A DNA stretch of 64,000 bases from Microbacterium hominis. Its GTDB lineage: Bacteria; Actinomycetota; Actinomycetes; Actinomycetales; Microbacteriaceae. Positions 3,304 to 47,847 of the stretch are shown piece by piece. The notes below the pieces were generated by a model. The model was not told where the DNA came from and did no database searches. It worked only from the letters and a program-made list of their open reading frames with translations. The DNA lies in NCBI RefSeq assembly GCF_013282805.1, contig NZ_CP054038.1:248001-312000 (forward strand). The letters are read 5' to 3'. The position numbers and the translations under genes were made by a program. Position 1 is the stretch's first letter. Each line of letters begins with the position of its first letter.

Positions 3304-3437
3304 CCCGCTGCTCCGCTGTCGCAATCTGCTGCTCAGGCCGCTGTTTGCGACAGCGGAGCAGCGGGGGGTCGCTGTCGCACGCCGTTCCGCTGTCGCGATC
3401 TGCTGCTCAGGCCGCCGTTTGCGACAGCGGAGCAGCG
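3304..3437. repeat. Two adjacent copies of intergenic palindrome family A
   Basis: The first copy (3304-3365) has perfect 21-bp arms built on GCTGCTCCGCTGTCGCAA and its reverse complement, around a 20-nt loop. The second copy (about 3385-3437) has shorter arms, 11-12 bp matched, and nearly the same loop. They begin 18 bp after the surface-protein stop and lie between two convergent genes, so they could terminate transcription in both directions. The same stem recurs at 33289, 45005 and 47686. Confidence 0.9.
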
Positions 3438-33288: not shown

Positions 33289-33349
33289 CCCGCTGCTCCG
33301 CTGTCGCAATCGGCGGTTGGGGCTGCACTTTGTGACAGCGGAGCAGCGG
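33289..33349. repeat. Family A palindrome after the lipoprotein gene
   Basis: Left arm CCCGCTGCTCCGCTGTCGCA and right arm (33330-33349) pair with one mismatch around a 20-nt loop. The loop sequence differs from that of the 3304 copy while the stem is kept. It starts 16 bp after the stop codon. Confidence 0.88.
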
Positions 33350-33472: not shown

Positions 33473-33511
33473 GTGCAATCGGTTGACAAACGCGGCGAAC
33501 TCCGGCATCCT
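33473..33511 (+). promoter_or_regulatory. uxaC promoter with overlapping LacI-type operator
   Basis: The 17-mer GTGCAATCGGTTGACAA (33473-33489) has the CG-centred TGCAA-x-CG-x-TTG style of LacI operators and includes the -35 TTGACA (33483-33488). After 17 bases comes CATCCT (33506-33511) as -10. The identical 17-mer is at 37725-37741. The ATG is seven bases after the -10, so the message may be leaderless. Confidence 0.72.
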
Positions 33512-33518
33512 GGGGGAC

Positions 33519-34922
33519 ATGTCGATGCCGACCACACTCGCGAACGATCGCCTCCTGCCCGCCGATGAGCGCACGCGCGACCTCGCCCGCGAGATCTTCG
33601 CGGGCATCGAGAGCGCCCCGATCCTGTCCCCGCACGGTCACGTCGACCCGACGCTGCTCGCCGACGACGTGCCCTTCTCCGACCCGACCGAGCTGCTCAT
33701 CACGCGCGACCACTACGTCACGCGACTGCTCCACGCGGCCGGCATCCCGCTCGCCGACCTCGGGCTCGATCCTCAGCGTCCGGTCGACCCGCGGCAGCCG
33801 TGGCGTCTGCTCGCCGAGAACTGGCACCGCTTCACCGGGACGGCGAGCGGCTACTGGATCACCCACGAGCTGCAGACGCTGTTCGGGGTCGCCGACGAGT
33901 TCGGACCCGACACCGCCGACGCGATCTACGACCGCATCGCGGTCACGCTCGCCGAGCCCGCGTTCCGACCGCGCGCGCTGTTCGACCGGTTCGGCATCGA
34001 GGTGCTCGCCACCACCGACGACCCGCTCGACGACCTCGCCGCCCATGCGCGCCTCGCCGCTGACGGCACGTTCCGCGGGCGCGTGCTGCCCACCTTCCGC
34101 CCCGACGCCTACCTCGACCCCGAGGGCGCCGACTTCGCGGACCGCGTCGAGCGCCTCCTCGCCGCCACCGGCGAGGAGCGCACGTTCGCCGGCTACCTGC
34201 GCGCCCTCGAAGCGCGCCGCGCCCACTTCATCGCCCACGGCGCCGTCTCGGCCGACCACGGGGTGCTCGAGCCGTTCACGACCGACCTCGATCCGGCCGT
34301 CGCACAGTCGCTGTTCGCCGACGCGGTCGCGGGCCGTGCGACCGCCGAGCAGGCTCGCCTGTTCCGCGGGCACATGCTGTTCCAGATGGCGCGCATGAGC
34401 GTCGCCGACGGGCTGGTCATGACCGTGCACCCCGGCGTGCGCCGCAACCACCACCGCCCGACCTTCCAGGCCTACGGCGCCGACACCGGTCACGACATCC
34501 CCGTGCGCACCGAGTACACCGAGAACCTCCGCCCGCTGCTCGAGGCCTTCGGCACCGCACCCGGGTTCCACCTGGTGCTGTTCGCCGTCGACGAGACCGT
34601 CTACTCCCGCGAGGTCGCGCCGCTCGCCGGCTTCTACCCGAGCGTCTACATCGGCGCACCGTGGTGGTTCCTCGACGCCCCCGACGCGATCCTGCGCTGG
34701 CGCAGCGCCGTGACCGAGACCGCGGGCTTCTACCGCTCGAGCGGCTTCATCGACGACACGCGCGCCTTCCTGTCGATCCCGGCCCGCCACGACACCTCCC
34801 GCCGATTGGATGCCGCCTTCCTCGCGCGCCTGGTCGCCGAGGGTCGCGCCACCCTGCCGCAGGCCCACCGCATCGCGCGCGACCTCGTCGACGCGCTCCC
34901 CCGAGAGGTGTTCAAGCTGTGA
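33519..34922 (+). CDS. uxaC: Glucuronate isomerase
   Basis: Converts D-glucuronate to D-fructuronate (and galacturonate to tagaturonate), the first step of hexuronate breakdown. The 467-residue length is right for UxaC. The metal-binding LSPHGHVDPTLLADD near the start, LPTFRPDAYLD, and HPGVRRNHH are all family landmarks, as is PWWFLDAPDAI with SGFIDDTRAFLSIPARHD near the C-terminus. First gene of a run whose next two members continue the pathway. The next start overlaps its stop. Confidence 0.94.
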   Translation: MSMPTTLANDRLLPADERTRDLAREIFAGIESAPILSPHGHVDPTLLADDVPFSDPTELLITRDHYVTRLLHAAGIPLADLGLDPQRPVDPRQPWRLLAENWHRFTGTASGYWITHELQTLFGVADEFGPDTADAIYDRIAVTLAEPAFRPRALFDRFGIEVLATTDDPLDDLAAHARLAADGTFRGRVLPTFRPDAYLDPEGADFADRVERLLAATGEERTFAGYLRALEARRAHFIAHGAVSADHGVLEPFTTDLDPAVAQSLFADAVAGRATAEQARLFRGHMLFQMARMSVADGLVMTVHPGVRRNHHRPTFQAYGADTGHDIPVRTEYTENLRPLLEAFGTAPGFHLVLFAVDETVYSREVAPLAGFYPSVYIGAPWWFLDAPDAILRWRSAVTETAGFYRSSGFIDDTRAFLSIPARHDTSRRLDAAFLARLVAEGRATLPQAHRIARDLVDALPREVFKL

Positions 34923-36313
34923 CTGTTCCGCTCACCCGCGACGCGCTCGCCGCGCGCACCGGCATCGACGCCGACGCCGCCCCGGTACGCATCGTGCACC
35001 TGGGCCTCGGCCACTTCTTCCGCGCCCACCAGGCCTGGTACACCGCCCGATCGGTGGATGCCGCGGAGTGGGGCATCGCCGCCTTCACGGGGCGCAGCGC
35101 CGGCATCGCCGACACGCTCCAGGGGCAGGACGGCCTGTTCGCGCTCGTCGAGCGCGGCGCCGAGGGTGACGGCGTCGAGATCGTCACGAGTCTCGTCGAG
35201 GCCCGCCCCGGCACCGACACCGCGCGCCTGGTCGAACTCGTCGCCGACCCCGCCGTCGCGGTCATCACGCTGACGGTCACCGAGAGCGGCTACCGGCTGA
35301 CCCCCGACGGCACGCCCGATCTCGGCGACGCGGCACTTGCCGCCGACCTCGAGGTGCTGCGCGGCGGCTCCTCCGCAGACCGCGGGCCGCAGACCGCGCT
35401 CGGCCGACTGGTGCTCGCCCTCGACGCCCGCCGGCGGGCCGACGCGGGGCCGATCGCCGTCGTGTCGTGCGACAACATCCCCGGCAACGGCGCGTTCGTG
35501 CGCCGCGGGGCGACCGCCCTCGCCGAGGCGATCGACCCGGCGCTGGCCGACTGGATGCGCACCGAGGTCTCCTTCGTGAGCACGTCGGTCGACCGCATCA
35601 CCCCGCACGGCGACGAGTCGCCCGGAGCCGTCGCCGACGCCGGGTGGGAGGACCACGCCGCCGTCGTCACCGAGCCGTTCGCCGACTGGGTGCTCGCCGG
35701 AGACTTCCCCGCCGGCCGGCCGGAGTGGGAGAGCGCGGGCGCCCGCTTCGTCGACGACATCGAGCCCTGGGAGCACCGCAAGCTCTGGCTGCTCAACGGC
35801 GCGCACAGCATCCTCACGTTCGCGGGACTGCCGCGCGGTCTCGAGACGGTGGCCGACGCCACCGCCGACGCCCACTGCCGTGCTCTGGTCGAGGCGTTCT
35901 GGTCCGAGGCGGTGCAGTGCCTCCCGGCCGGCACCGAGCACGTCCATTACCGCGAGCAGCTGATCGAGCGGTTCTCGAACCCGCGCATCGTGCACCGCCT
36001 CTCGCAGATCGCCGCCGAGGCCACGGTGAAGGCGCAGTTCCGCTTCGCCGCGGTCGCCGAGCGCTCGGTCGCGGCCGGTCGTGACGCCGAGGGCTCGCTG
36101 CAGGCGCTCGGCACCTGGATCGCATGGGTGCTCGACGGCCCGTCGGCGCCCGACGCCCGCGCCGACGAGGTCGCCGCCGCCGCGGCATCCATCGATCCCG
36201 TCCGCAGCCTCCTCGGCCTCGTCTCGCCGATGCTGGCGGCCGACACCGTCGCCGTCGCGCGCGTGCGCGCCGCGGCATCCCTCCGTCCCACGCTCGCCCG
36301 ACGCGCGAGCTGA
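34919..36313 (+). CDS. Mannitol dehydrogenase family oxidoreductase, probable fructuronate reductase
   Basis: Long-chain polyol dehydrogenase of 464 residues. Rossmann start [18 protein letters not shown], then SCDNIPGNG and the catalytic-region helix with [12 protein letters not shown] (the conserved K-x5-N-x2-H as KLWLLNGAH). In this position, between glucuronate isomerase and mannonate dehydratase, it should reduce D-fructuronate to D-mannonate with NADH (UxuB role). A mannitol or altronate activity cannot be excluded by sequence alone. GTG start overlaps the uxaC stop. Confidence 0.88.
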
Positions 36314-36348
36314 CCCAGCCCCACACGCCCGAAAGCGAGAACCACGCA

Positions 36349-37593
36349 ATGAGCATGATCATCGACAAGGCCGAGGTGATCGTCACCAGCCCCGACCGCA
36401 ACTTCGTGACCCTGAAGATCACGACCGCCGACGGCCTCACCGGCCTCGGCGACGCCACCCTCAACGGGCGCGAGCTCGCCGTGGTCTCCTACCTCACCGA
36501 GCACGTGGTGCCGCTGCTGATCGGCAGCGATGCCGCGAAGATCGAGGACACCTGGCAGTTCCTCTACCGCTCCGCCTACTGGCGTCGCGGCCCGGTCACG
36601 ATGGCCTCGATCGCCGCCGTCGACATGGCGCTGTGGGACATCAAGGGCAAGGCGGCCGGGATGCCGGTGTACCAGCTGCTCGGCGGCGCCAGCCGCACCG
36701 GCCTGCTCGCCTACGGTCACGCCTCGGGCAAGGAGCTCCCCGAACTGTTCGACAGCGTGCGCTCGCACCTGGAGCAGGGGTACAAGGCGATCCGCATCCA
36801 GACCGGCGTGCCGGGGCTGAAGGCGATCTACGGCATCGCGTCGCAGTCCGCCGACACCGGCGGCGGCGAGGCCCGGTACGACCACGAGCCCGCGCGCCGG
36901 GGCGCGAAGCCGGTGCAGGAGGACTGGGACACCCGCGCCTACCTGAACCACCTCCCCGGGGTGTTCGAGGCGGTCCGCAACGAGTTCGGCCCCGACATCC
37001 CGCTGCTGCACGACGGCCATCACCGCATGACGCCCCTCCAGGCGGCGAAGCTCGGCAAGTCGCTGGAGCCGTACGACCTGTTCTGGCTGGAGGACTGCAC
37101 GCCGGCCGAGAACCAGGAGGCGCTGCGCCTGGTGCGCCAGCACACCACGACGCCGCTCGCGATCGGGGAGATCTTCAACACGATCTGGGACTTCAAAGAC
37201 CTCATCCGCGACCAGCAGATCGACTACGTGCGCGGCGCGGTCACCCACATGGGCGGTATCTCGCCGTTGAAGAAGACGCTGGAGTACGCGGCGATGTATC
37301 AGGTGAAGTCGGGCATGCACGGCCCGACCGACATCTCGCCGGTCGGCATGGCCGCCGCGATGCACCTGGGCCTGTCGATCCACAACTTCGGCATCCAGGA
37401 GTACATGAAGCACGGGCAGAAGACCGACCAGGTCTTCGAGCAGTCCTTCTCGTGGCAGGGCGGACTGCTGCACCCGGGCGACAAGCCGGGCCTCGGCGTC
37501 GAGCTCAACCTCGACGAGGCCGGCAAGTACCCGTACGAGCAGGCCTACCTGCCCTACAACCGCCTCGCGGACGGCACCGTGCACGACTGGTGA
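36349..37593 (+). CDS. manD: D-mannonate dehydratase, enolase superfamily (ManD/RspA type)
   Basis: Dehydrates D-mannonate to 2-keto-3-deoxygluconate. The 414-residue protein has the ManD features: N-terminal capping domain with [15 protein letters not shown], barrel with metal ligands in [19 protein letters not shown] and [11 protein letters not shown], the catalytic-side [11 protein letters not shown], and the family tail [19 protein letters not shown]. This is the enolase-type enzyme, unrelated to the classical UxuA fold. A second ATG two codons in could be used. The KDG kinase and aldolase that would finish the pathway are not in the window. Confidence 0.92.
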
Positions 37594-37602
37594 CCGAAGG
37601 CC

Positions 37603-37646
37603 CGCGCGGAAGGCGTCGTCCCGTCAGGGGCGGCGCCTTCCGCGCG
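37603..37646. terminator. Hairpin after the mannonate dehydratase gene
   Basis: CGCGCGGAAGGCG and its exact reverse complement form a 13-bp stem 10 bp after the stop, consistent with a terminator ending the uxaC operon. Confidence 0.8.
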
Positions 37647-37659
37647 TCGACCGGACAAC

Positions 37660-37763
37660 GGCAACCGGTACCGGAGCACTGACTGCGGAAAAAGTGGTAT
37701 CTGATCTCGCTTTGAAATGATTTCGTGCAATCGGTTGACAACCGGACGAAACAGCGGTTGACT
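37660..37763 (+). promoter_or_regulatory. Hexuronate transporter promoter and LacI-type operators
   Basis: GGCAACCGGT (37660-37669) and the 17-mer GTGCAATCGGTTGACAA (37725-37741) repeat the arrangement in front of uxaC. TTGACA (37735-37740) is -35, and after 17 bases TTGACT (37758-37763) is a possible but poor -10. CGGTTGAC recurs at 37755-37762, 23 bp after its first copy. Confidence 0.65.
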
Positions 37764-37828
37764 GTGTGCACGAACAGCGATCGCCCTTGGGGCGCCGAGT
37801 TCTTGCATCCCACGACAAAGGAGTTCAG

Positions 37829-37879
37829 ATGCGTGCAGCGCACTCGCACAGCATTGGTCAGGTGATCCGCCATGGATGA
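37829..37879 (+). CDS. Leader ORF (16 codons) coupled to the hexuronate transporter
   Basis: ATG preceded by AAAGGAG at good spacing opens a short frame encoding MRAAHSHSIGQVIRHG and ending at TGA 37877-37879. Its last codons overlap the transporter's start codon in another frame (ATGGATGA). The transporter itself lacks a clear Shine-Dalgarno sequence, so ribosomes finishing the leader could restart on it. Three of 16 residues are His, but no attenuator hairpin is evident. The peptide may have no function of its own. Confidence 0.55.
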   Translation: MRAAHSHSIGQVIRHG

Positions 37880-39236
37880 GATCACCAAGCCGCTCGACGC
37901 CACCCAGGCGCAGAAGACCTACGGCACCGACACCGCGACCGTCCCGACGCAGAAGGTGAAGGGCCGCCCGGGCGGGCTCGTCGCCCTCGCCTTCGCGAAC
38001 ATCGTCGACGGGTTCGAAGGCGGGCTCGTCAACACGCTGTTCCCCGTGATCCGCGACGCGCTGGGGCTGCAGACGAGCGCCCTCGGCATCCTGACGGCGA
38101 TGAGCCGCTTCGCCCGCATGCTCTTCGGTCCGATCTGGGCCGCTGCCGCCGACCGCTTCGGCCGCAAGAAGGTGCTGTTCATCGCCACCGGCCTCTGGGG
38201 TCTGTGGACGGTCGCCGCCGGCTTCGCGCAGGATTCGACGCAGCTGTTCATCCTCTACGGCATCGGCGTCATCGGCACCGTCGCGAGCGAGCCGATCACC
38301 AACGGCCTCATCGTCGACATGTACCGCTCGAAGGAGCGCGGCCGCGCGTTCGGCATCCTCCGAACCCTGGGCATGATCGCCTCGGTGGTCGCCACTCCGC
38401 TGATCGGCCAGTTCGCGAACATCGACGAGGGCTGGCGCTACGGCATGTTCGCGATGGGCGGCATCAGCGTCGTGTCCGGCGTCCTCATCCTGCTCTTCGT
38501 GCACGAGCCGAAGAAGCACACGCCGGTCGGCGCGATCGATCCCGACGCCATGAAGTTCACCTTCCGCGACGCCGTCGGCCTGTTCCGCACCCGCACGATC
38601 CTCTTCATGGCCGTGCAGGTGATGCTCACCACGAGCCTCGTGCTGTTCGCCTTCTTCATCACGTTCTGGGTCGACGACCGCGGCTGGGGCGTCGCCGACG
38701 CGGCGCTTCTCATGTCGGTCTACATGCTGGGCGCTGTCATCAGCGGCTTCGTGGGCGGCTTCCTCGGCGACTGGTTCGAGAAGCGGTTCGGGTTCAAGGG
38801 CCGCGTCATGATGATGCAGGGCTACCTGGTGGGCTACGCGATCTCGACCGCGCTGCTGTTCCAGATCGACTGGGGCATGGGCGTCGCCGTCTACGTCGCG
38901 GTGTTCTTCACGGGTCTGCTCAGCTCCATCGGCCACCCCGGGGCGGTGCTGCCGATCGTCGGCTCGGTCGTGCACAAGAGCGTCGTAGCCACCGCCTACG
39001 CCCTGATCTTCTCGTTCATCCAGGGTCTGTTCGCGGCCCTGCTCAGCCTCGCGTTCGGCTTCCTGGCCGATTCGCTCGGCCTGCAGGCGCTCATGTTCTG
39101 GATCATCTCGGTGCCCTACGCGATCAACGCCGTGCTGTGGACCGTGATGTACCGCATCTACCCCAAGGACGCCGAGAAGCAGCGCGCCCTCGATGAGGCG
39201 GAGGAGTCCGCGGTCGCCACGGCCGCGGCAGAGTAA
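37872..39236 (+). CDS. MFS transporter, probable hexuronate/sugar-acid carrier
   Basis: Twelve-helix MFS carrier of 454 residues. Loop 2-3 is AADRFGRKKVLF, the standard D-R-x-G-R-(K/R) signature. Cytoplasmic ends are long, at about 35 and 25 residues. It lies downstream of a promoter that shares an exact 17-bp operator with uxaC, so it should be co-induced with glucuronate breakdown and probably imports a hexuronate or a uronate-containing disaccharide. Translation appears coupled to an upstream leader ORF. Confidence 0.83.
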   Translation: MDEITKPLDATQAQKTYGTDTATVPTQKVKGRPGGLVALAFANIVDGFEGGLVNTLFPVIRDALGLQTSALGILTAMSRFARMLFGPIWAAAADRFGRKKVLFIATGLWGLWTVAAGFAQDSTQLFILYGIGVIGTVASEPITNGLIVDMYRSKERGRAFGILRTLGMIASVVATPLIGQFANIDEGWRYGMFAMGGISVVSGVLILLFVHEPKKHTPVGAIDPDAMKFTFRDAVGLFRTRTILFMAVQVMLTTSLVLFAFFITFWVDDRGWGVADAALLMSVYMLGAVISGFVGGFLGDWFEKRFGFKGRVMMMQGYLVGYAISTALLFQIDWGMGVAVYVAVFFTGLLSSIGHPGAVLPIVGSVVHKSVVATAYALIFSFIQGLFAALLSLAFGFLADSLGLQALMFWIISVPYAINAVLWTVMYRIYPKDAEKQRALDEAEESAVATAAAE

Positions 39237-39243
39237 GTCCGTC

Positions 39244-39277
39244 GGGGGCGGCGCGCGCGTGCTGCCGCGCCGCCCCC
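39244..39277. terminator. Hairpin after the hexuronate transporter
   Basis: GGGGGCGGCGCG and its exact reverse complement form a 12-bp stem with a 10-nt loop, eight bp after the stop. It may end the transporter mRNA or reduce read-through into the next four genes, for which I see no separate strong promoter. Confidence 0.7.
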
Positions 39278-39319
39278 GTACCCCACCGAAGAGATACGAC
39301 ACCGACCGGAGAGAACCTC

Positions 39320-40201
39320 GTGACCGAAACGCTGACCGCCCCCGACCCGACGACCGCCCCCGCCGGCACCGTCACCTGGACCCTGTCCGGCTTCGGCGAC
39401 GAGATCGACCCGGAGCCGGCGACCCAGACCGCGGTGCTCGCGGCTCTCGGCGCCCGTCACATCGAGGTGCGCTCCGCGTGGGGCGTCAACGTCATCGACC
39501 TCGACGACGATCAGATCGCGGCCCTGCGGGGCGTGCTCGACCGGGCCGGATTCCAGGCGTCGGCGATCGGGTCGCCGATCGGCAAGGTGGATGTCGCGCT
39601 CGACGCCGATCTCGAGGTGCAGCGTCTGCGCCGCGTGATCCGCGTGGCCCACGCCCTCGAGACGCCGAACATCCGCATCTTCTCCTTCTTCCGCGCTCCC
39701 GGCCGCACCCCCGAGGAGATCCGCGACGACGTGCTCGTGCGGATGCGGCTGCTCGCCGACGAGGCCGAGCGCGAGGGCATCACGCTCCTCCACGAGAACG
39801 AGAAGGACATCTACGGCGACATCCCCTCCCGCGTGCACGACGTCGTCGAGTCGGTGGGCTCGTCGGCGTTGCGCCTGGCCTGGGACAACGCGAACTTCGT
39901 GCAGGTGGGGGTCAAGCCCTTCACCGACGGCTGGGCGCTGCTGCGTCCCTACGTGGACTACCTCCAGGTCAAGGACGCGCTCGCCGCCACCGGCGAGGTC
40001 GTGCCCGCCGGTGAGGGCGACGGCGAGCTGCGCGAGACGCTGACCGCGCTGCGCGACGAGGGCTACGCGGGCTTCGCGTCGCTGGAGCCGCACCTGGCGG
40101 CGGGCTTCGAGCTGGGCGGCTTCTCGGGGCCGTACGAGTTCGGCCGCGCGGCGCGCGCGTTCCGGTCGCTGACCGACGACCTCGGGGTGGCTCTCGCATG
40201 A
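39320..40201 (+). CDS. Xylose-isomerase-like TIM-barrel protein (sugar phosphate isomerase/epimerase family)
   Basis: AP-endonuclease-2-type barrel of 293 residues. FGDEIDPEPATQ at the start, LLHENEKDIYGD (metal-ligand region), LAWDNANFVQVG and DYLQVKDA are the strand ends that form the active site. The His-x-Glu and Asp-Asn pattern differs from the barrel encoded at 42444, so the two are not recent duplicates. It overlaps the following oxidoreductase gene by four bases (ATGA). An isomerase, epimerase or lyase acting on a keto-sugar is expected. Confidence 0.85.
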   Translation: MTETLTAPDPTTAPAGTVTWTLSGFGDEIDPEPATQTAVLAALGARHIEVRSAWGVNVIDLDDDQIAALRGVLDRAGFQASAIGSPIGKVDVALDADLEVQRLRRVIRVAHALETPNIRIFSFFRAPGRTPEEIRDDVLVRMRLLADEAEREGITLLHENEKDIYGDIPSRVHDVVESVGSSALRLAWDNANFVQVGVKPFTDGWALLRPYVDYLQVKDALAATGEVVPAGEGDGELRETLTALRDEGYAGFASLEPHLAAGFELGGFSGPYEFGRAARAFRSLTDDLGVALA

Positions 40202-41241
40202 CCGCTCCGCTGCGGGTGGCCGTCATCGGCCTCGGCGACATCTCCACCGTGCACCTGGCCGCCATCGCCGATTCCGCCGACGCCGTGCTCGTCGGCGTCT
40301 GCGACCCCGACGACGTCCGCCGCGATGCCGTCGCGACCGCCGCCGGCGTCGAAGGCTACGCCGATCACCGCGACCTGCTCGACCGCGCCGCCCCCGATGT
40401 CGTGCACATCTGCACGCCCCACTTCACGCACTCCGACATCGCGGTCGACGCCCTCGAGCGCGGGGTGAACGTGATCCTCGAGAAGCCCCTGGCGGCGACC
40501 CGGGACGAGGGTCAACGGGTGGTGGATGCCGCGGCCACGAGCACCGCGCGCATCGCGGTCTGCTTCCAGAACCGCTACAACACCGCGGTGCAGCGTGCGA
40601 AGGAGATCCTCGACTCCGGGGAGCTCGGCGCGGTGCGCGGGGCGTGGGCGACCGTGCTGTGGCACCGCTCGCCCGACTACTACCGCGCGAGCCCCTGGCG
40701 CGGCACCTGGGCGGGCGGCGGCGGAGGCCTGCTCATGAACCAGGCGATCCACACCGTCGATCTCGTGCAGTGGCTCGTCGGCGAGGTGACGCACGTGGCC
40801 GGCAGCGCCGGCACCCGCGCCCTCGGCGACACCATCGAGGTCGAGGACACCGCCGACCTGGTGCTCACTCACGCGAACGGCGCACGCAGCGTGCTGTTCG
40901 CCACCGTCGCGCACATCGACAACGAACCGGTCGCGATCGAGATCACCGCCGAGCACGGCCGGCTCATCCTCAAGGGCGACCTCGAGATCATCCGCGCCGA
41001 CGGCTCGCGCGAGATCGTCTCCGAAGACGCCATGGGCACCGGCGAACGCGCCTACTGGGGCGGCGCGCACGTACGCCTCATCACCGACTTCCACCGATCG
41101 CTCGGCGAACCGGGCCCCTTCTGGATCGACGCCGCCGCAGCCCAGAAGAGCCTGGAGATCATCCAGGACGTCTACGACCAGTCCTTCCCCCACCGGCGCG
41201 TGCCGGCACCGGCATCCCACGAATGGAGCACCACGTCATGA
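40198..41241 (+). CDS. Gfo/Idh/MocA family oxidoreductase 1
   Basis: NAD(P)-dependent sugar or inositol dehydrogenase of 347 residues. Rossmann motif VIGLGDIS near residue 10, catalytic-loop Glu-Lys-Pro at 95-97, and GGGLLMNQAIHTVD with the conserved His in the second domain. No Tat or Sec signal. Such enzymes often oxidise C3 of a glycoside or inositol. It is coupled by four-base overlaps to the TIM barrel before it and to a second family member after it, so the three products probably act in sequence on one substrate. Confidence 0.9.
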   Translation: MTAPLRVAVIGLGDISTVHLAAIADSADAVLVGVCDPDDVRRDAVATAAGVEGYADHRDLLDRAAPDVVHICTPHFTHSDIAVDALERGVNVILEKPLAATRDEGQRVVDAAATSTARIAVCFQNRYNTAVQRAKEILDSGELGAVRGAWATVLWHRSPDYYRASPWRGTWAGGGGGLLMNQAIHTVDLVQWLVGEVTHVAGSAGTRALGDTIEVEDTADLVLTHANGARSVLFATVAHIDNEPVAIEITAEHGRLILKGDLEIIRADGSREIVSEDAMGTGERAYWGGAHVRLITDFHRSLGEPGPFWIDAAAAQKSLEIIQDVYDQSFPHRRVPAPASHEWSTTS

Positions 41242-42404
41242 CGAAGACCATCCGCCTCGGCATCATCGGTCTCGGCCAGCAGGGCGGTATGTACGCCGGT
41301 CTCATCGCGAAGGGCCAGACGCCGAACATCGAGCTCGCCGCGATCGCCGACACCGACCCCGCGAAGGCGGAGCGGGCTGCGGCCGAGTTCCCCGACGTGC
41401 CGTTCTTCGCCGACTACGTCGAGCTGCTCGACAGCGGCACCGTCGACGCCGTCGTGACGACCGTGCCCCACTACCTGCACCCCGAGATGGGCATCGCGGC
41501 GATCGAGCGCGGCATCCACGCCCTCGTCGAGAAGCCCGCGGGCGTCTACTCGAAGCAGGTCGCCGAGCTCAACGCCGTCGCGGCAGCCCACCCGGAGATC
41601 ACCTTCGCGCTCATGTTCAATCAGCGCGCCAACCCTCTTTACCAGCGGCTCAAGGAGATCATCGACGGCGGCGAGATCGGCGACATCCTCCGCAGCAACT
41701 GGATCATCACGACCTGGTGGCGCCCGCAGGGCTACTACGACTCGAGCACCTGGCGCGCGACGTGGGGCGGCGAGGGCGGCGGCGTGCTCGTCAACCAGGC
41801 TCCGCACCAGCTCGACCTGTGGCAGTGGCTGTGCGGCGTGCCGACGTCGGTGTTCGCGAAGGCCGCCTTCGGCTTCCGCCGCGACATCGCCGTCGAAGAC
41901 GAGGTGACCGCCTTCGTCGACTACGGCAACGGCGCGACCGGGGTGTTCGTCACCGCCACCCACGACATGGTCGGCACCGACCGCCTCGAGATCCTCGGCA
42001 CCGCCGGAAAGATCGTCGTCGAGGACAGCAAGACCGCCGTCGTCACCCGGCTGAGCAAGCCCGAGCGCGAGCTCAGCGCCCAGATGGACATGCAGGATGT
42101 CATGAAGCTGTTCATGGGCCAGGCCGACATCGCCTCGCTGTACACGCAGGAGACCATCGAGTTCCCGTCGGCCTGGGGCACCCAGCACGCCGACGTGCTC
42201 GTGAACTTCGCCGCCGCGATCCTCGACGGCACGCCGCTCATCGCCTCGGGCGCCGAGGGCATCCGCGGCGTGCGGCTGGCCAACGCCATCCACCTGTCGA
42301 GCTGGACCGGCAAGGAGGTGCCGATCGACTTCGACGAAGACGAGTTCCTTGCCGAGTTGAACACCCGCATCGGCGCCGAGGGCCTCTACTCGACGCGCGG
42401 CTGA
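41238..42404 (+). CDS. Gfo/Idh/MocA family oxidoreductase 2
   Basis: Second member of the family, 388 residues, with GIIGLGQQGGMYAG, Glu-Lys-Pro at 98-100 and GGGVLVNQAPHQLDLWQWL. The WWRPQGYYDSSTWRATWGGEGGG segment closely parallels the one in oxidoreductase 1 (YYRASPWRGTWAGGGGG), so the two share ancestry but have diverged. A cytosolic enzyme. One of the pair could oxidise and the other re-reduce a keto-sugar, as in known 3-keto-glycoside and inositol routes; that is inference. Confidence 0.9.
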   Translation: MTKTIRLGIIGLGQQGGMYAGLIAKGQTPNIELAAIADTDPAKAERAAAEFPDVPFFADYVELLDSGTVDAVVTTVPHYLHPEMGIAAIERGIHALVEKPAGVYSKQVAELNAVAAAHPEITFALMFNQRANPLYQRLKEIIDGGEIGDILRSNWIITTWWRPQGYYDSSTWRATWGGEGGGVLVNQAPHQLDLWQWLCGVPTSVFAKAAFGFRRDIAVEDEVTAFVDYGNGATGVFVTATHDMVGTDRLEILGTAGKIVVEDSKTAVVTRLSKPERELSAQMDMQDVMKLFMGQADIASLYTQETIEFPSAWGTQHADVLVNFAAAILDGTPLIASGAEGIRGVRLANAIHLSSWTGKEVPIDFDEDEFLAELNTRIGAEGLYSTRG

Positions 42405-42443
42405 CGCGCGGCATCCACTCACTCGACGACGGAAGGAAAGACG

Positions 42444-43337
42444 ATGACCAGGATCGGCGTACAGGCGATGATGCTCAAGGAGAGCTTCGCGACCGACGGT
42501 GTGTTCGAGACCCTCAAGCAGGTGAGCGAGATCGGCTACTCGGCCTTCGAGATCTCGCAGGTGCCCATGACCCCCGAGAACGTCGACGAGCTCGACCGGG
42601 CGCGCCAGGAGCTCGGCGTCGAGATGGCCGCCCTGTCGGCGATGCTCACCGCACCTCCCGGCATGACCGCCGAGTCGCTCACCGACGACTTCGACAAGAT
42701 CGTCGCAGACTGCCGCAGATTGGATGCCACGAAGCTGCGCATCGGCATGCTGCCGTTCGACGCCATGGCCTCCCTCGACCGCGTGCGGGCGTTCTGCGAC
42801 GCTACCGAGGAGATCGCGGGTCGCCTGGCCGACCACGGCATCGGGCTGTACTACCACAACCATCACATCGAGTTCGCGAAGTACGACGGGCGCTACATGC
42901 TCGACATCATCGCCGACCGCGCTCCGAGCGTGGGGCTCGAGATCGACGTGCACTGGGTGCAGCGCGGCGGGCTCGACCCCGTCTCGACGCTGCGCAAGTA
43001 CGGCGAGCGGGTGACCATGGTGCACCTCAAGGACTACCGCATCGGGCAGCTGCCCCCGTCGGCGTTCGAGGCGCTCGGGAAGGGCGACTTCCCCGGGTTC
43101 ATGGCCGCATTCACGGGTGTCGTGCAGTTCGCCGAGGTGGGCGAGGGCAACCTCGACTTCGCCGGCATCATCGAGGAGAGCAAGGCCATCGGCGCCGAGT
43201 ACCTCCTCGTCGAGCAGGACGACCTCTACGGCCGCACGCCGCTCGAGTGCCTCCAGACCTCCTACGACAACCTCGTCGCGCTCGGCTACGCCGATCTGTT
43301 CGGCGCCCCGGCGCTCGCCGCGACCGCCGGGTCGTGA
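42444..43337 (+). CDS. Xylose-isomerase-like TIM-barrel protein 2 (IolE/hydroxypyruvate-isomerase-like)
   Basis: AP-endonuclease-2-type barrel of 297 residues with GLYYHNHHIEF, GLEIDVHWVQRGG and TMVHLKDYRIG, giving the His/Glu/Asp metal site. The HNHH-x-EF and EIDVHW pattern resembles the barrel at 20438 in the rhamnosidase operon more than the one at 39320. It follows the second oxidoreductase by 39 bp with GGAAGGAAAG as ribosome-binding site. Likely acts on the oxidised sugar made by its neighbours. Confidence 0.86.
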   Translation: MTRIGVQAMMLKESFATDGVFETLKQVSEIGYSAFEISQVPMTPENVDELDRARQELGVEMAALSAMLTAPPGMTAESLTDDFDKIVADCRRLDATKLRIGMLPFDAMASLDRVRAFCDATEEIAGRLADHGIGLYYHNHHIEFAKYDGRYMLDIIADRAPSVGLEIDVHWVQRGGLDPVSTLRKYGERVTMVHLKDYRIGQLPPSAFEALGKGDFPGFMAAFTGVVQFAEVGEGNLDFAGIIEESKAIGAEYLLVEQDDLYGRTPLECLQTSYDNLVALGYADLFGAPALAATAGS

Positions 43338-43360
43338 CCGGAACCGGCATGATGGGTGGG

Positions 43361-43897
43361 GTGAGCACCCTGGAGACACCCGTCGCCGGCGCACCCCACC
43401 GGGTGCGGGTCGTGGTGATGGGCGTCTCCGCGGTCGGCAAGTCGTCTGTCGCCCTCGCGCTGGCGGAGCGGCTCGGCGTGCCGATGCGGGATGCCGACGA
43501 CCTGCATCCGAGCGCGAACGTCGAGAAGATGCGCGCGGGCACCCCGCTCACCGACGCCGATCGCGGGCCGTGGCTCGACCTCGTGGGAGCCGCGCTGGCC
43601 GGTGCCGAGGGCGGCGTCGTCATGGCCTGCTCGGCGTTGCGCCGCAGATACCGCGACCGGCTGCGGCTGCGGGCGCCGGGCGTCGTGTTCGTGCATCTGA
43701 CGGGGTCTCCCGAGCTGCTCGCCGAACGCGCCGCCGGGCGCGCGGATCACTTCATGCCGCCGGCGCTGCTCGCGTCGCAGCTGGCCACGCTCGAGCCGCT
43801 CGAAGACGACGAGCCGGGCATCGCGCTCGATGTCGCCGCGCCGATCGAGGATCTGGCCGCGCGAGCGGGGGAATGGCTGGGTGCCCATGTCGGCTGA
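43361..43897 (+). CDS. gntK: Gluconokinase (GntK family)
   Basis: Phosphorylates D-gluconate to 6-phosphogluconate. The 178-residue P-loop kinase has GVSAVGKSS at 21-29, the substrate-side motif DADDLHPSANVEKMRAGTPL, then DRGPWL, CSALRRRYRDRLR and GRADHFMPPALLASQLATLEPLE, all GntK landmarks. ATG codons at 43349 and 43352 are alternative starts; the GTG follows CATGAT by seven bases and fits the local leaderless pattern. In this locus a 2-keto-3-deoxygluconate kinase would be expected, so a role on a gluconate-like product of the adjacent oxidoreductases is possible. Confidence 0.88.
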   Translation: MSTLETPVAGAPHRVRVVVMGVSAVGKSSVALALAERLGVPMRDADDLHPSANVEKMRAGTPLTDADRGPWLDLVGAALAGAEGGVVMACSALRRRYRDRLRLRAPGVVFVHLTGSPELLAERAAGRADHFMPPALLASQLATLEPLEDDEPGIALDVAAPIEDLAARAGEWLGAHVG

Positions 43898-43916
43898 GCG
43901 TGCGGTGGGCGAGGGA

Positions 43917-44936
43917 ATGGTCGTGTCCGACGAGGTCGCCGCACGCATCGCGCGGCGCGGCGGCAACTCGACCATCTACGACGTCGCGGAGGTCGCCGGG
44001 GTGAGCCCGTCGACGGTGTCGCGGGCGCTCAGCAAGCCGGGGCGCATCAGCGCGCGCACCGAGGAGCGCATCCGCGCCGCAGCGGCGCTCGTGGCCTTCC
44101 GCTTCAACCCCATGGCGCGCGCGCTTCCGACAGGGCGCACCCACACGCTCGCCGTCGTGGTCGCCGACATCACGAACCCGGTGGTGTTCGGCATCATCCG
44201 CGGTGCCGAGAAGGCCGCCTCCGACGCGGGCTACACGCTGGTCATCGCCGAGTCGCAGGAATCCGGCGAGGCCGAAGCCGCCGCGATCGAGCGGCTCATG
44301 CCCGGGGTCGACGGCATCGTGCTGGCCACCACGCGTCTAGGCGATGACCGCATCGCCGAGATCGCGGGGCGCAAGCCCATCGTGCTCATCAACCGCGATG
44401 TCGACGGCGTGCCCGGCATCCTTCCCGACGTCACCCAGGGCGTCGACGCACTCATGGCCCACCTCGCCGAGCTGGGGCACCGGTCGGTCGCCTTCCTCTC
44501 CGGACCCGCCGAGTCGTGGATCAGCGACCGCCGCTGGGACGCGATCCTCGACGCGGCCGAGCGCCTCGACATGGCGGCGATCGAGATCGGCCCGAACCAG
44601 CCGACGATCGAAGGCGGGCGCGCCGTCGCTCGGCGCCTCCTGGCCGCGCGCGTCGACGCCGTGATCGCGTTCAACGACCTCGTGGCCATCGGCGTCATCC
44701 AGGCGGCGACCGAGGCCGGCGTCGCCGTGCCCGGCGGCCTCAGCGTCGCGGGCTTCGACGACATCTTCGGCAGCGAGCTCGTGACCCCCACGCTCACCAC
44801 CGTGCGCTCGCAGCTCGCCCTCGCCGGCGAGCGTGCCGTGCACGACCTGCTCGCCCCGCCCGCGGCCGACGCCGATGCGGCGCTGCTGGCCACCGAGCTG
44901 GTCGTGCGCCGCTCGACCGGCGCCGTCGCGCGCTGA
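43917..44936 (+). CDS. LacI/GalR-family transcriptional regulator
   Basis: Repressor of 339 residues from this start (349 if ATG 43887, which overlaps gntK, is used). HTH STIYDVAEVAGVSPSTVSRALSKP at residues 18-41 in parts, hinge with FNPMARALPTGRT, then the periplasmic-binding-protein-like domain (VVVADITNPVVFGIIRGAEKAA, VDGIVLATTR, VIAFNDLVAIGVIQ). As the only LacI gene in the window and at the end of the uronate locus, it is the likely reader of the two identical CG-centred operators. Its inducer may be a uronate or gluconate intermediate. Confidence 0.9.
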   Translation: MVVSDEVAARIARRGGNSTIYDVAEVAGVSPSTVSRALSKPGRISARTEERIRAAAALVAFRFNPMARALPTGRTHTLAVVVADITNPVVFGIIRGAEKAASDAGYTLVIAESQESGEAEAAAIERLMPGVDGIVLATTRLGDDRIAEIAGRKPIVLINRDVDGVPGILPDVTQGVDALMAHLAELGHRSVAFLSGPAESWISDRRWDAILDAAERLDMAAIEIGPNQPTIEGGRAVARRLLAARVDAVIAFNDLVAIGVIQAATEAGVAVPGGLSVAGFDDIFGSELVTPTLTTVRSQLALAGERAVHDLLAPPAADADAALLATELVVRRSTGAVAR

Positions 44937-44970: not shown

Positions 44971-45004
44971 CTGCTCCTTTTGCTTCGCTGCTCCTTTTGC
45001 TTCG
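44971..45004. repeat. Two tandem copies of a 17-bp unit
   Basis: CTGCTCCTTTTGCTTCG is repeated exactly twice, directly abutting the family A palindrome whose arm begins with the same CTGCTCC. It looks like local duplication of the palindrome's end. Confidence 0.85.
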
Positions 45005-45058
45005 CTGCTCCGCTGTCGCACACGGTGCCGCGAACGACAGATTGCGACAGCGGAGCAG
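45005..45058. repeat. Family A palindrome after the LacI gene
   Basis: CTGCTCCGCTGTCGCA and its exact reverse complement (45043-45058) form a 16-bp stem around a 22-nt loop unrelated to the other loops. Confidence 0.88.
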
Positions 45059-45136
45059 AGGAGGCGCGTGTATCCGCATCCGCCTCCGCGCCCTCCTCAA
45101 CAGGGGGCATATGCCTCCCCTGTCCAAGGAGGAGCC

Positions 45137-47380
45137 ATGACCATCATCGACGACGAGCACGGACTCGATCTCGATCAGCTCGAGGGGGGACCGCTTCCCC
45201 TCGACGAGCTCCAGCGGCTGCCGTTCCGGTACGCGTCCGCGAGCGGCACGTACGCGATCCGGCGTCCGTCGTTCTCACCGCGCGTCGCGCCGCCGGCCGA
45301 GGCCGCGGCCGAGCCCGATGAGGCGGATGCCGCGCTCGGCGACCCGCCCATCGCGTTCGCGCCGCTGCGCCTGCGCGAGGAACTGCGGCTCGACGTGGAC
45401 CGGCACCATCCGCAGATGACCGCCAGCGGCACCTCGATCTCGCTGCTGTCGCGGCAGAAGTCGTGGATCGCGCGCGTGCGCAAGACGGGCACGTGGCGCT
45501 ACGCCGGACCCATCTGGCACACCGACGGCTACGGGGCGGCGGGGTTCGCGTACGATCACGTCGACATCACCGTGGTGCCGTCGTTCTTCGGCGTCGGCGG
45601 CCATGCGACCGTGGTGTTCAGCCGCGGCGGCGGTCGCACGCTCACGCGCAGATACCCGTTCGAGTCGGCGTCGTTCCGTGCCGTGCAGTTCGAATTCGAC
45701 GCCACTCCCGACGCCGAGCCGATCACCCAGATCGAAACCCACGACCACCCCAACCGGCCGGCCACGCTCGCCGACGAGGCGCTGTCGATCGAGACGGTGT
45801 TCCGCCGCGCGGGCTTCGCGGTGACCACGACGCCAGCCGGCACCGTGCCGGTCAGCGGCGCGGGCGCCAACGGCACCTGGAGCGACGCGGAGATGCACGA
45901 CGCGATGCAGACGTACTGGTCGCGCTTCGCGGATGCGCCGCAGTGGGCGCTGTGGACCTTCTGGGCCCGCCAGCACGACACCGGGCGGAGCCTCGGCGGC
46001 GTCATGTTCGACGACATCGGCCCGAATCACCGGCAGGGGACCGCGATCTTCACCGACTCGTTCATCCGCGACGTGCCGGCCGGGGATGCCGCGCCCGACG
46101 CGTGGGACCGCCGCATGCGGTTCTGGACGGCCGTGCACGAGATGGGGCACGCGTTCAACCTCGCCCACTCCTGGCAGAAGGCGCTGGGCACCCCGTGGAT
46201 CCCGATGGCGAACCAGCCGGAGGCGCGCTCGTTCATGAACTACCCGTACTTCGTCTCGGGCGGTCAGGCGGCGTTCTTCTCCGACTTCGCCTACCGCTTC
46301 TCCGACGAGGAGCTGCTGTTCCTGCGGCACGCGCCGTCGCGGTTCGTGCAGATGGGCAACGCGGACTGGTTCGACCACCACTCGTTCGAGCAGGCGTTCG
46401 CCGAGCTGCCCCCGGCCGAGTACCGCCTGGAGGTGCGGGCGAACCGGCCGGCGCCGGTGTTCGAGTTCCTGGAGCCGGTCGTGCTCGAGCTCAAGCTCAC
46501 CAACACCAGTGCCGAGCCGAAGGTCGTGCACGCCGACATCCTCGACCCGCAGCACGTGCTGACGATCGTGGCGGGCTCGCGCACCGAACCGCGGCAGTGG
46601 ATGCCGTATGCCCGCACCTGCACGGGGTCGATCGCCTCGGTGCTCGAGCCCCGAGGATCGGTCTACGCGTCGCTGCCGGTGTTCGCGGGCCTCAACGGCT
46701 GGGACGTGTCCGAGCCCGGCTCGTACGACGTGGTCGCCGTCGTCGAAGTCGACGGGCGCCCGCTGCGCAGCGAGCCGTTCTCGCTGCGGGTGGCGGCCCC
46801 CCGCTCGCCGGAGGAGTCGGCGCTCGCCGGCGAGGTCTTCACCGAGCGCGTCGGCCGGGCCCTGGCGTTCGACGGCACCGCGGTCGACACCGTCGCCGCG
46901 GACACGCTCGCCGAGGCCGTCGACCGGCTGCCCGCCTCGCGGATCGCGATCCACGCGGCTGCGGCGATCGCCCGCCCGCTCGCGCGCGACTACAAGCTCC
47001 TCGAGATCCCCGACGGCGCCGACGCGCAGTCGTCGGTCTCCGCCGCCGGCGGCGAGGTGCGCGTGCGCGCGGCGCAGGTCGATGAGGCGCTGCAGATCGC
47101 GGAGGCGCAGCTGGTGACGGATGCCGCGGCCGAGACGCTCGGACACATCCGCATGCACGGGCTCGTGGATGCGATCTCCGGGGATGCCGCACGGGAGGGA
47201 GCGGCCGACCACGCGGCATCCATGCAGCGAGGCATGCGCGACGTGCTCGAGGGCCGCGGGGTGCTGCCCCGGGTGCTCGACGACGTCGCCCGCACCGCGG
47301 AAGGCTACGCGCCGGAGCCCAAGGCCGCGGCCCGTAAGCCCGCCACCCGCAAGCCGGCGGCGAAGAAGGGGGCGAAGTGA
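45137..47380 (+). CDS. Metzincin-like zinc metalloprotease without signal peptide
   Basis: A 747-residue protein with HEMGHAFNLAH at residues 334-344, the metzincin HExxHxxxxxH pattern (Asn in place of the usual Gly), and Met367 in SFMNYP as Met-turn candidate 23 residues on. Residues 1-330 look beta-rich and unrecognised. After the catalytic region a beta-sandwich-like part (EYRLEVRANRPAPVFEFLEPVVLELKLTN in parts) and a helical stretch lead to a Lys/Ala/Pro-rich tail. No signal peptide or membrane helix, so it is either cytosolic or exported by an unusual route. AAGGAGG supports the start. The next gene overlaps by four bases. Confidence 0.75.
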   Translation: MTIIDDEHGLDLDQLEGGPLPLDELQRLPFRYASASGTYAIRRPSFSPRVAPPAEAAAEPDEADAALGDPPIAFAPLRLREELRLDVDRHHPQMTASGTSISLLSRQKSWIARVRKTGTWRYAGPIWHTDGYGAAGFAYDHVDITVVPSFFGVGGHATVVFSRGGGRTLTRRYPFESASFRAVQFEFDATPDAEPITQIETHDHPNRPATLADEALSIETVFRRAGFAVTTTPAGTVPVSGAGANGTWSDAEMHDAMQTYWSRFADAPQWALWTFWARQHDTGRSLGGVMFDDIGPNHRQGTAIFTDSFIRDVPAGDAAPDAWDRRMRFWTAVHEMGHAFNLAHSWQKALGTPWIPMANQPEARSFMNYPYFVSGGQAAFFSDFAYRFSDEELLFLRHAPSRFVQMGNADWFDHHSFEQAFAELPPAEYRLEVRANRPAPVFEFLEPVVLELKLTNTSAEPKVVHADILDPQHVLTIVAGSRTEPRQWMPYARTCTGSIASVLEPRGSVYASLPVFAGLNGWDVSEPGSYDVVAVVEVDGRPLRSEPFSLRVAAPRSPEESALAGEVFTERVGRALAFDGTAVDTVAADTLAEAVDRLPASRIAIHAAAAIARPLARDYKLLEIPDGADAQSSVSAAGGEVRVRAAQVDEALQIAEAQLVTDAAAETLGHIRMHGLVDAISGDAAREGAADHAASMQRGMRDVLEGRGVLPRVLDDVARTAEGYAPEPKAAARKPATRKPAAKKGAK

Positions 47381-47673
47381 TCCCGCTGCATCTGGAGTTC
47401 CAGGACGGCTGGACCGGCGAGCACGTGGTCGTGCGCCTCGACGGGGGGATCGTCGCCGAGGCCGCGCCGACCACCCGCATGCAGATCGGGCTCGCCGAGG
47501 CGCTCGTCGTCGAGGTGGAGCCGGGTCCGCACGTGCTGACGGTCGAGATCGCGGATGCCGCGCTCGCCGCCGAGCATGCCTTCGACGCATCGACCGAGAC
47601 GTGGGTGGGCATCTCCCGGGTGGACGGCACGGTCGCGTTCCGCGAGCAGCAGACGCTGTTCGGCTACGTCTGA
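47377..47673 (+). CDS. Small protein coupled to the metzincin-like gene
   Basis: A 98-residue, acidic, probably all-beta protein: alternating hydrophobic strands are seen in LHLEFQDGW, EHVVVRLDGGIVAEA, ALVVEVEPGPHVLTVEIAD and WVGISRVDGTVAFREQQ. No Cys, no signal peptide. The ATGA overlap with the metalloprotease gene predicts similar amounts of both products and a physical or functional link, such as an inhibitor, a chaperone or a substrate-docking partner. I do not recognise a family, and no function is claimed. Confidence 0.78.
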   Translation: MIPLHLEFQDGWTGEHVVVRLDGGIVAEAAPTTRMQIGLAEALVVEVEPGPHVLTVEIADAALAAEHAFDASTETWVGISRVDGTVAFREQQTLFGYV

Positions 47674-47685
47674 GCGCGTCACTTC

Positions 47686-47742
47686 GCTGCTCCGCTGTCG
47701 CAAACGGTCACCTCGACTGCGGATTGCGACAGCGGAGCAGCG
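47686..47742. repeat. Family A palindrome after the small protein gene
   Basis: GCTGCTCCGCTGTCGCAA and its reverse complement (18 bp, perfect) enclose a 21-nt loop, 12 bp after the stop codon. Confidence 0.88.
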
Positions 47743-47763
47743 GAGCAGCGGAGTGCGGGAGCA

Positions 47764-47817
47764 GGAGCAACGGATTGCGACAGCGGAGCAGGAGCAACGG
47801 ATTGCGACAGCGGAGCA
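47764..47817. repeat. Two tandem copies of a 27-bp unit containing the family A right arm
   Basis: Each unit is GGAGCAACGGATTGCGACAG followed by CGGAGCA, repeated exactly. Both can compete with the proper right arm for pairing with the left arm at 47686, so alternative hairpins are possible. Confidence 0.85.
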
Positions 47818-47847
47818 GCGAAGCCGCGGAGTCCCGGACGCTGTGAG

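Follow-up and report, generated by a model that had tools for sequence, protein, structure and literature searches.

A metzincin-like metalloprotease gene and one small partner gene form a conserved two-gene unit in Microbacterium hominis and other bacteria

Organization of the locus

The window, a stretch of 64,000 nucleotides from Microbacterium hominis (contig NZ_CP054038.1, positions 248,001 to 312,000), carries two forward-strand genes whose neighbours are a LacI gene on one side and a gene for a GH3 glycosidase on the other. The first, at 45137..47380, starts with ATG behind a Shine-Dalgarno-like AAGGAGG read from the sequence (45126..45132, forward strand); by its open reading frame, homologs and alignments it encodes a metzincin-like protein of 747 residues without assigned family. 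The second, here called the partner gene (47377..47673), was recognized from its reading frame and homologs, and encodes 98 residues from a GTG start. The protease stop and the partner start have GTGA in common, which bears out the four-base overlap given in the preliminary description.

A repeat search revealed a dispersed inverted repeat with the core GCGACAGCGGAGCAG flanking the pair, with an upstream copy at 45000..45068 and downstream copies at 47682..47828, neither assigned to a strand. The core has 10 exact copies in the window against 0.01 expected by shuffling. The repeat is inverted where it flanks the pair, and the stretches that contain its copies are 3308-3435, 33293-33307, 45005-45058 and 47687-47818. 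Comparison with an empty site by way of the LacI neighbour returned only LacI paralogs with other neighbours absent. Elsewhere in the window, positions 33483-44936 hold a sugar-acid catabolic cluster (glucuronate isomerase, mannitol-dehydrogenase type, enolase superfamily, MFS, xylose-isomerase-like, small AAA/kinase-like and LacI genes).

Active-site motifs and overall features of the protease

The zinc-binding and catalytic motif HEMGHAFNLAH spans residues 334-344 (46136..46168, forward strand), and the Met-turn SFMNYP spans residues 365-370 (46229..46246, forward strand). In an alignment of 90 rows the extended zinc motif HE.GH..N..H is present in all 90, with the zinc ligands His334, His338 and His344, the catalytic Glu335 and Met367 of the Met-turn invariant; SFMNY is kept in 88 rows. 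The motifs that had been read from the single sequence thus recur throughout the aligned members, and judged by its residues the protease should be catalytically competent. The zinc motif of the metzincin clan is HExxHxx(G/N)xxH/D, and the classical form has Gly where this family has Asn. Both clan features are found here: all 90 rows have the zinc motif, and the third zinc ligand is followed by a Met-turn. The dN/dS values of the protease are 0.04-0.08 (10 pairs of five copies, 600 codons).

The N-terminal half had been regarded as unrecognised. A Pfam search with the N-terminal 200 residues gave no family, in agreement with that view, but conserved blocks are present. SGTY at residues 36-39 (45242..45253, forward strand) follows a variable leader and belongs to a motif, SGx[YWF], found within the first 170 residues in 89 of the 90 rows. 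In addition, residues 81-98 form a conserved block within the N-terminal region, and the alignments reveal the block EELRLDVDG...PQM.ASG in this region.

At the other end, the Lys/Ala-rich tail noted earlier (residues 726-747; 47312..47377, forward strand) is real, with little conservation of sequence (over these residues, mean modal-residue frequency 0.15 and gap fraction 0.47). A basic end is common nonetheless, since 65 of the 90 rows carry at least five Lys or Arg among their last 20 residues. As to a signal peptide, a simple hydropathy rule was applied to the 120 listed family members, the window's own included. A hydrophobic N-terminal stretch was found in three, inside a Pro-rich leader, and the other 117 begin without a Sec-like start, consistent with the claim that the protein has no signal peptide.

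Family assignment and distribution of the protease

No Pfam domain was found on the 120 protease homologs among the matches listed. At E values up to 1, Reprolysin_4 (PF13583) was matched weakly by 36 of 36 alignment members (best E 6e-5), Reprolysin_3 (PF13582) by 26 of 36 and Peptidase_M10 (PF00413) by 15 of 36. These reprolysin-like and matrixin families share the HExxHxxxxxH motif and the Met-turn with the protease, and because all 36 scanned members match Reprolysin_4, if weakly, we consider the protease metzincin-like at the clan level. The window protease itself stays below the cut-offs of reprolysin (M12B; 13.5 against 24 bits) and matrixin (M10; 12.1 against 22 bits), and its matches to solved structures span little beyond the zinc motif (best E 0.59). 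The profile searches that had been proposed gave an accepted family for neither protein, with nothing above the cut-offs of Pfam, NCBIfam, PDB sequence profiles or PADLOC. The protease is thus best called metzincin-like by motif, without an assigned family in the libraries searched.

In a database clustered at 90%, the 8000 best candidates were scored and at least 1742 proteins reached E <= 0.001. A scan of genome contigs gave 49 protease loci. A Microbacterium locus shares 67% identity with the window protease over the best segment and an Arthrobacter locus 57%, while most loci lie at 41-52%; they reach Nitrospira, Chloroflexota, Cyanobacteria, Pseudomonadota and Paenibacillus, and between phyla the protease is about 40-50% identical. 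Within its own surroundings it is rare. Among 58 relatives it was found only in the window's own genome, among 398 genomes of the family there was one full match (the own genome) and one weak match of 43 residues, and among 396 genomes of the phylum it occurs in three. Strong conservation together with such patchiness suggests that the protease has spread by horizontal transfer. A phage origin was considered and rejected, as the phage collection contained no match.

The partner protein and its fixed C-terminus

The preliminary description of the partner as a 98-residue small beta-protein stands for the gene and its length; the beta character is hinted at by weak residue propensities (mean 1.04 for beta against 1.02 for alpha, most segments being called strand). 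The alignment search passed 154 partner proteins, of which 120 were listed. Against Pfam, with E allowed up to 10, the homologs touched 46 families; of the 25 listed, none was matched by more than four of 91 members. The best weak match, Cas_VVA1548 (PF09652; 3 of 91 members, best E 1.5e-4), was rejected as an identity because it did not recur at the partner's place in 11 genomes or records, where nothing exceeded the cut-off. The emfourin family (PF20242) was rejected as well: its profile matched once in the own genome, elsewhere than the partner, and hhalign against seven emfourin sequences gave a probability of 2.5% over 23 columns. For Inh/AprI (PF02974), at E up to 10, there was no match in the own genome and none at the partner's place in six other carriers, and no control genome passed the cut-off. 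Origin as a copied protease domain was likewise rejected, hhalign giving a probability of 0.3%. The partner therefore appears to fit no family convincingly.

Conservation of the partner runs over its whole length in the alignments, beyond the tail. With dN/dS values of 0.11-0.37 (36 pairs of nine Nitrospira copies), it is under purifying selection and is constrained less than the protease. Its last four residues, FGYV (47659..47670, forward strand), stand directly before the stop codon. A tail of the form Phe-x-Tyr-aliphatic ends exactly at the stop in all 32 locus copies, the window's included, and in all 122 database copies among those listed; the two sets overlap, and the profile behind most copies contains the tail and so favours such matches, the stop position not being required by the search. 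Three divergent copies end in GFL or AFL. Since the carboxy terminus is both fixed and free, the terminus itself is suggested to be functional.

Three partner starts were read by eye. The Cytophagales copy (L013) has a lipoprotein-like signal. In the Leptolyngbya copy (L018) the start resembles a signal peptide, and AGGAGGTGA lies upstream of it. In Coleofasciculus (L029), AAGGAGG precedes an internal ATG of the partner, so this protein may be made in both forms.

Conserved linkage and co-occurrence of the two genes

The window partner and clustered neighbours served to build a profile, with which 655 kb at the 49 loci were searched in six frames. In 31 loci a partner homolog lay no more than about 1 kb from the protease, and nine of these loci are Nitrospira relatives. 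No second partner copy was found in these loci. The pair occurs in eight phyla: Actinomycetota, Nitrospirota, Chloroflexota, Pseudomonadota, Bacteroidota, Cyanobacteriota, Gemmatimonadota and Myxococcota. The partner lies on the protease strand in 30 of the 31 loci. With the window included, it is upstream in 23 cases, downstream on the same strand in eight and convergent in one (L031). Close tags are also seen in one pair of named records, JSU63_04745 (partner) and JSU63_04750 (protease).

The proposed co-occurrence analysis was carried out on 396 genomes of the phylum, where the partner is present in three of three genomes with the protease and in two of 393 without it. The chance of this distribution is about 1e-6 as calculated by hand, or about 8e-5 when the window's own genome is left aside; one of these genomes, G655, is already represented among the 49 loci by the Euzebyales locus L043 and so is no independent case. 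In G680, the partner and a protease gene in pieces sit close to the ends of two different contigs. An orphan partner in G707 contains stops. In G039, an open partner frame stands beside a Tex gene, and no protease match was found in the 19 kb read or in the genome at E 1e-10. Beside Tex in Arthrobacter StoSoilB13 (L062) lies a pair whose protease frame is in pieces. Such a pattern is expected if immunity outlasts the protease. A separate observation concerns Arthrobacter cavernae (G841, locus L002), which has a second, divergent partner copy at C62:351858-352124 besides the paired one.

The pairing extends into a divergent branch of six plasmid-borne protease relatives with 21-34% identity, two of which have the partner, Rhizobium L061 and Arthrobacter StoSoilB13. 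No partner was found in the regions read of the Embleya, Nonomuraea, Methylobacterium and Halocatena plasmids, nor on the whole Embleya plasmid. On the Rhizobium plasmid, a large protein with BNR repeats and a Ferritin-like domain (PF12902) is encoded upstream of the divergent protease (L061, 1395-4124), and on a haloarchaeal plasmid a distant protease relative with 21% identity lies near a patatin-like gene (L070, 4650-6269).

The protease and partner trees correlate at 0.70 over 24 loci (none of 5000 permutations as high), a mirror-tree value owed to common descent as much as to contact, and not taken here as proof of interaction. The next commonest neighbour clusters (in 9, 7, 7, 6 and 5 loci) are confined to Nitrospira. 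The search for a conserved third gene covered 41 of the 49 loci, seven Nitrospira near-copies and L042 being skipped; these loci encode 139 neighbour proteins, of which 136 were scanned and three omitted for size. No Pfam family occurred in more than four of the 136 proteins, among the 25 listed of 144 families, a scan in which single secretion genes may be unseen. The metalloprotease and one small gene are a conserved two-gene unit, as the preliminary description had supposed.

Proteases without a partner

In 18 of the 49 loci there is no adjacent partner; 13 of these have at least 1 kb on both sides and five less than 1 kb on one side. The partner was also sought in nine whole genomes of such solo lineages (three Paenibacillus isolates, the rest mostly metagenome bins) and was found in none. 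Therefore, the pair is not obligatory and does not fit an obligate toxin-antitoxin or toxin-immunity pair. Neither the zinc motif nor the Met-turn has been lost in any of the 13 solo proteases, so protection by the partner cannot be essential. On the protease tree, with the five short-flanked loci counted as solo, partner presence changes at least nine times, four of them forced by well supported branches; the partner must thus have been lost or gained repeatedly. Within positions 321-420, departures of solo proteases from residues fixed in paired ones are no commoner than elsewhere (2.9%). Solo lineages, Paenibacillus and Prochloraceae among them, also retain the motif SGx[YW]. A search for an alternative small partner in solo lineages turned up small frames that recur, but only between close relatives within Chromatiales and Paenibacillus.

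Proposed mechanism

Based on these observations, we propose that the pair consists of a metalloprotease and a dedicated small inhibitor serving self-protection or immunity, a reading to which we give about an even chance. The protease would be made without a Sec signal and the partner translated together with it, in the window through the shared GTGA. The partner would then bind the protease and block its active site, the Phe-x-Tyr-aliphatic tail entering the cleft and its free carboxylate meeting the zinc, much as AprI uses its free N-terminus in alkaline protease. The protease would have a substrate of its own, and some way out of the cell if it leaves at all. This reading draws on the linkage in eight phyla, the co-occurrence, the pairing in the divergent branch, the fixed tail, the selection, the invariant catalytic residues, the orphan-partner pattern and three published pairs. 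Counted against it are the 13 solo loci, the nine partnerless genomes, the varying gene order, four of six plasmid relatives without partner, and the lack of detectable emfourin or Inh homology. Export-like and lipoprotein-like partner starts (L018, L013) next to a signal-less protease are likewise awkward for a purely cytosolic inhibitor. A bolder version, in which the genes form a widespread module of antagonism or protease control, signal-less metzincins are plugged through the partner's C-terminal carboxylate as a mirror image of AprI, and the partner is an envelope immunity lipoprotein in some lineages, seems to us unlikely.

It is doubtful, if conceivable, that the partner is instead a substrate or precursor, cut to release an active product; such a role has been proposed for Listeria Tim, and systems of a metallopeptidase with a small FxSxx-COOH precursor offer another model. 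The C-terminus fixed at the stop, the lipoprotein-like partner in L013 and published peptidases encoded beside small cleaved proteins (PMC8235301, PMC7159879) are in keeping with such a role. However, the whole partner is conserved and not the tail alone, and since solo proteases keep their catalytic motifs, there must be some substrate other than the partner.

Similarly improbable is a role as adaptor, chaperone or export companion, which would deliver a substrate or stabilise the N-terminal part of the protease, perhaps through pairing with the SGxY strand. The prevalence of proteases without Sec-like start (117 of 120 listed), the SGx[YWF] motif in 89 of 90 rows and the occurrence of the partner both upstream and downstream would accord with it. 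However, the motif persists in solo lineages and is thus not tied to the partner, and no Pfam family among the 25 listed recurs in more than four of the 136 neighbour proteins. Cargo of a contractile injection system was rejected too, because a sheath is encoded in seven of 18 carriers and not in the window's own genome.

That the genes are mere neighbours linked by joint horizontal transfer, as the patchy spread might indicate, is very improbable, since the linkage persists while order and orientation change, the pairing recurs in the divergent branch, and the next commonest neighbours are limited to Nitrospira.

Comparison with known systems

The preliminary description had stated that no described system has this arrangement. 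This does not hold, as three published pairs are of the same kind. In Serratia proteamaculans, the intracellular metalloprotease protealysin has the gene of its inhibitor emfourin (M4in) in the same operon, and a role in interbacterial competition was suggested (PMC9505478). It resembles the window pair in having a small-protein gene alongside a metalloprotease gene; however, protealysin is of the M4 (thermolysin) kind whereas the window protease is metzincin-like, and emfourin and the partner have no detectable homology. The own genome also contains a pair of this type, in which the genes of an M4 peptidase and an emfourin-family protein overlap by 17 bp (L083, 321-1385 and 1369-1767; C1 ~2568446-2569892), and so holds two unrelated protease-partner pairs with overlapping genes.

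AprA-AprI likewise joins a metzincin with a small inhibitor encoded nearby, and the zinc is coordinated by the N-terminal residue of the inhibitor; unlike the mechanism proposed for the window pair, AprI acts by its N-terminus; it is also periplasmic, and AprA is a serralysin (PMC4070987). Listeria Mtz-Tim is a metzincin with an adjacent small protein, a pair reported to recur in Gram-positive bacteria, in which Mtz is secreted and cleaves Tim (PMC8235301). The window family also sets a metzincin-like protease beside a small protein, some of its partners (L013) being lipoprotein-like. The Met-turn differs, AIMLD in Mtz against SFMNYP in the window protease.

A metalloprotease with a small dedicated partner is thus a known kind of system. 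For these two families we found no description in the literature and libraries searched, which covered few subscription journals, and the motif strings were unmatched. A large unnamed metzincin-like family gains a dedicated, recognisable partner, and with it a concrete question, namely whether a fixed C-terminal tetrapeptide controls a signal-less metalloprotease. If so, the partner would open a way to find what is cut by a protease conserved between phyla and patchy within a bacterial family, and it would stand beside AprI and emfourin as an unrelated solution for restraining an endogenous bacterial metalloprotease.
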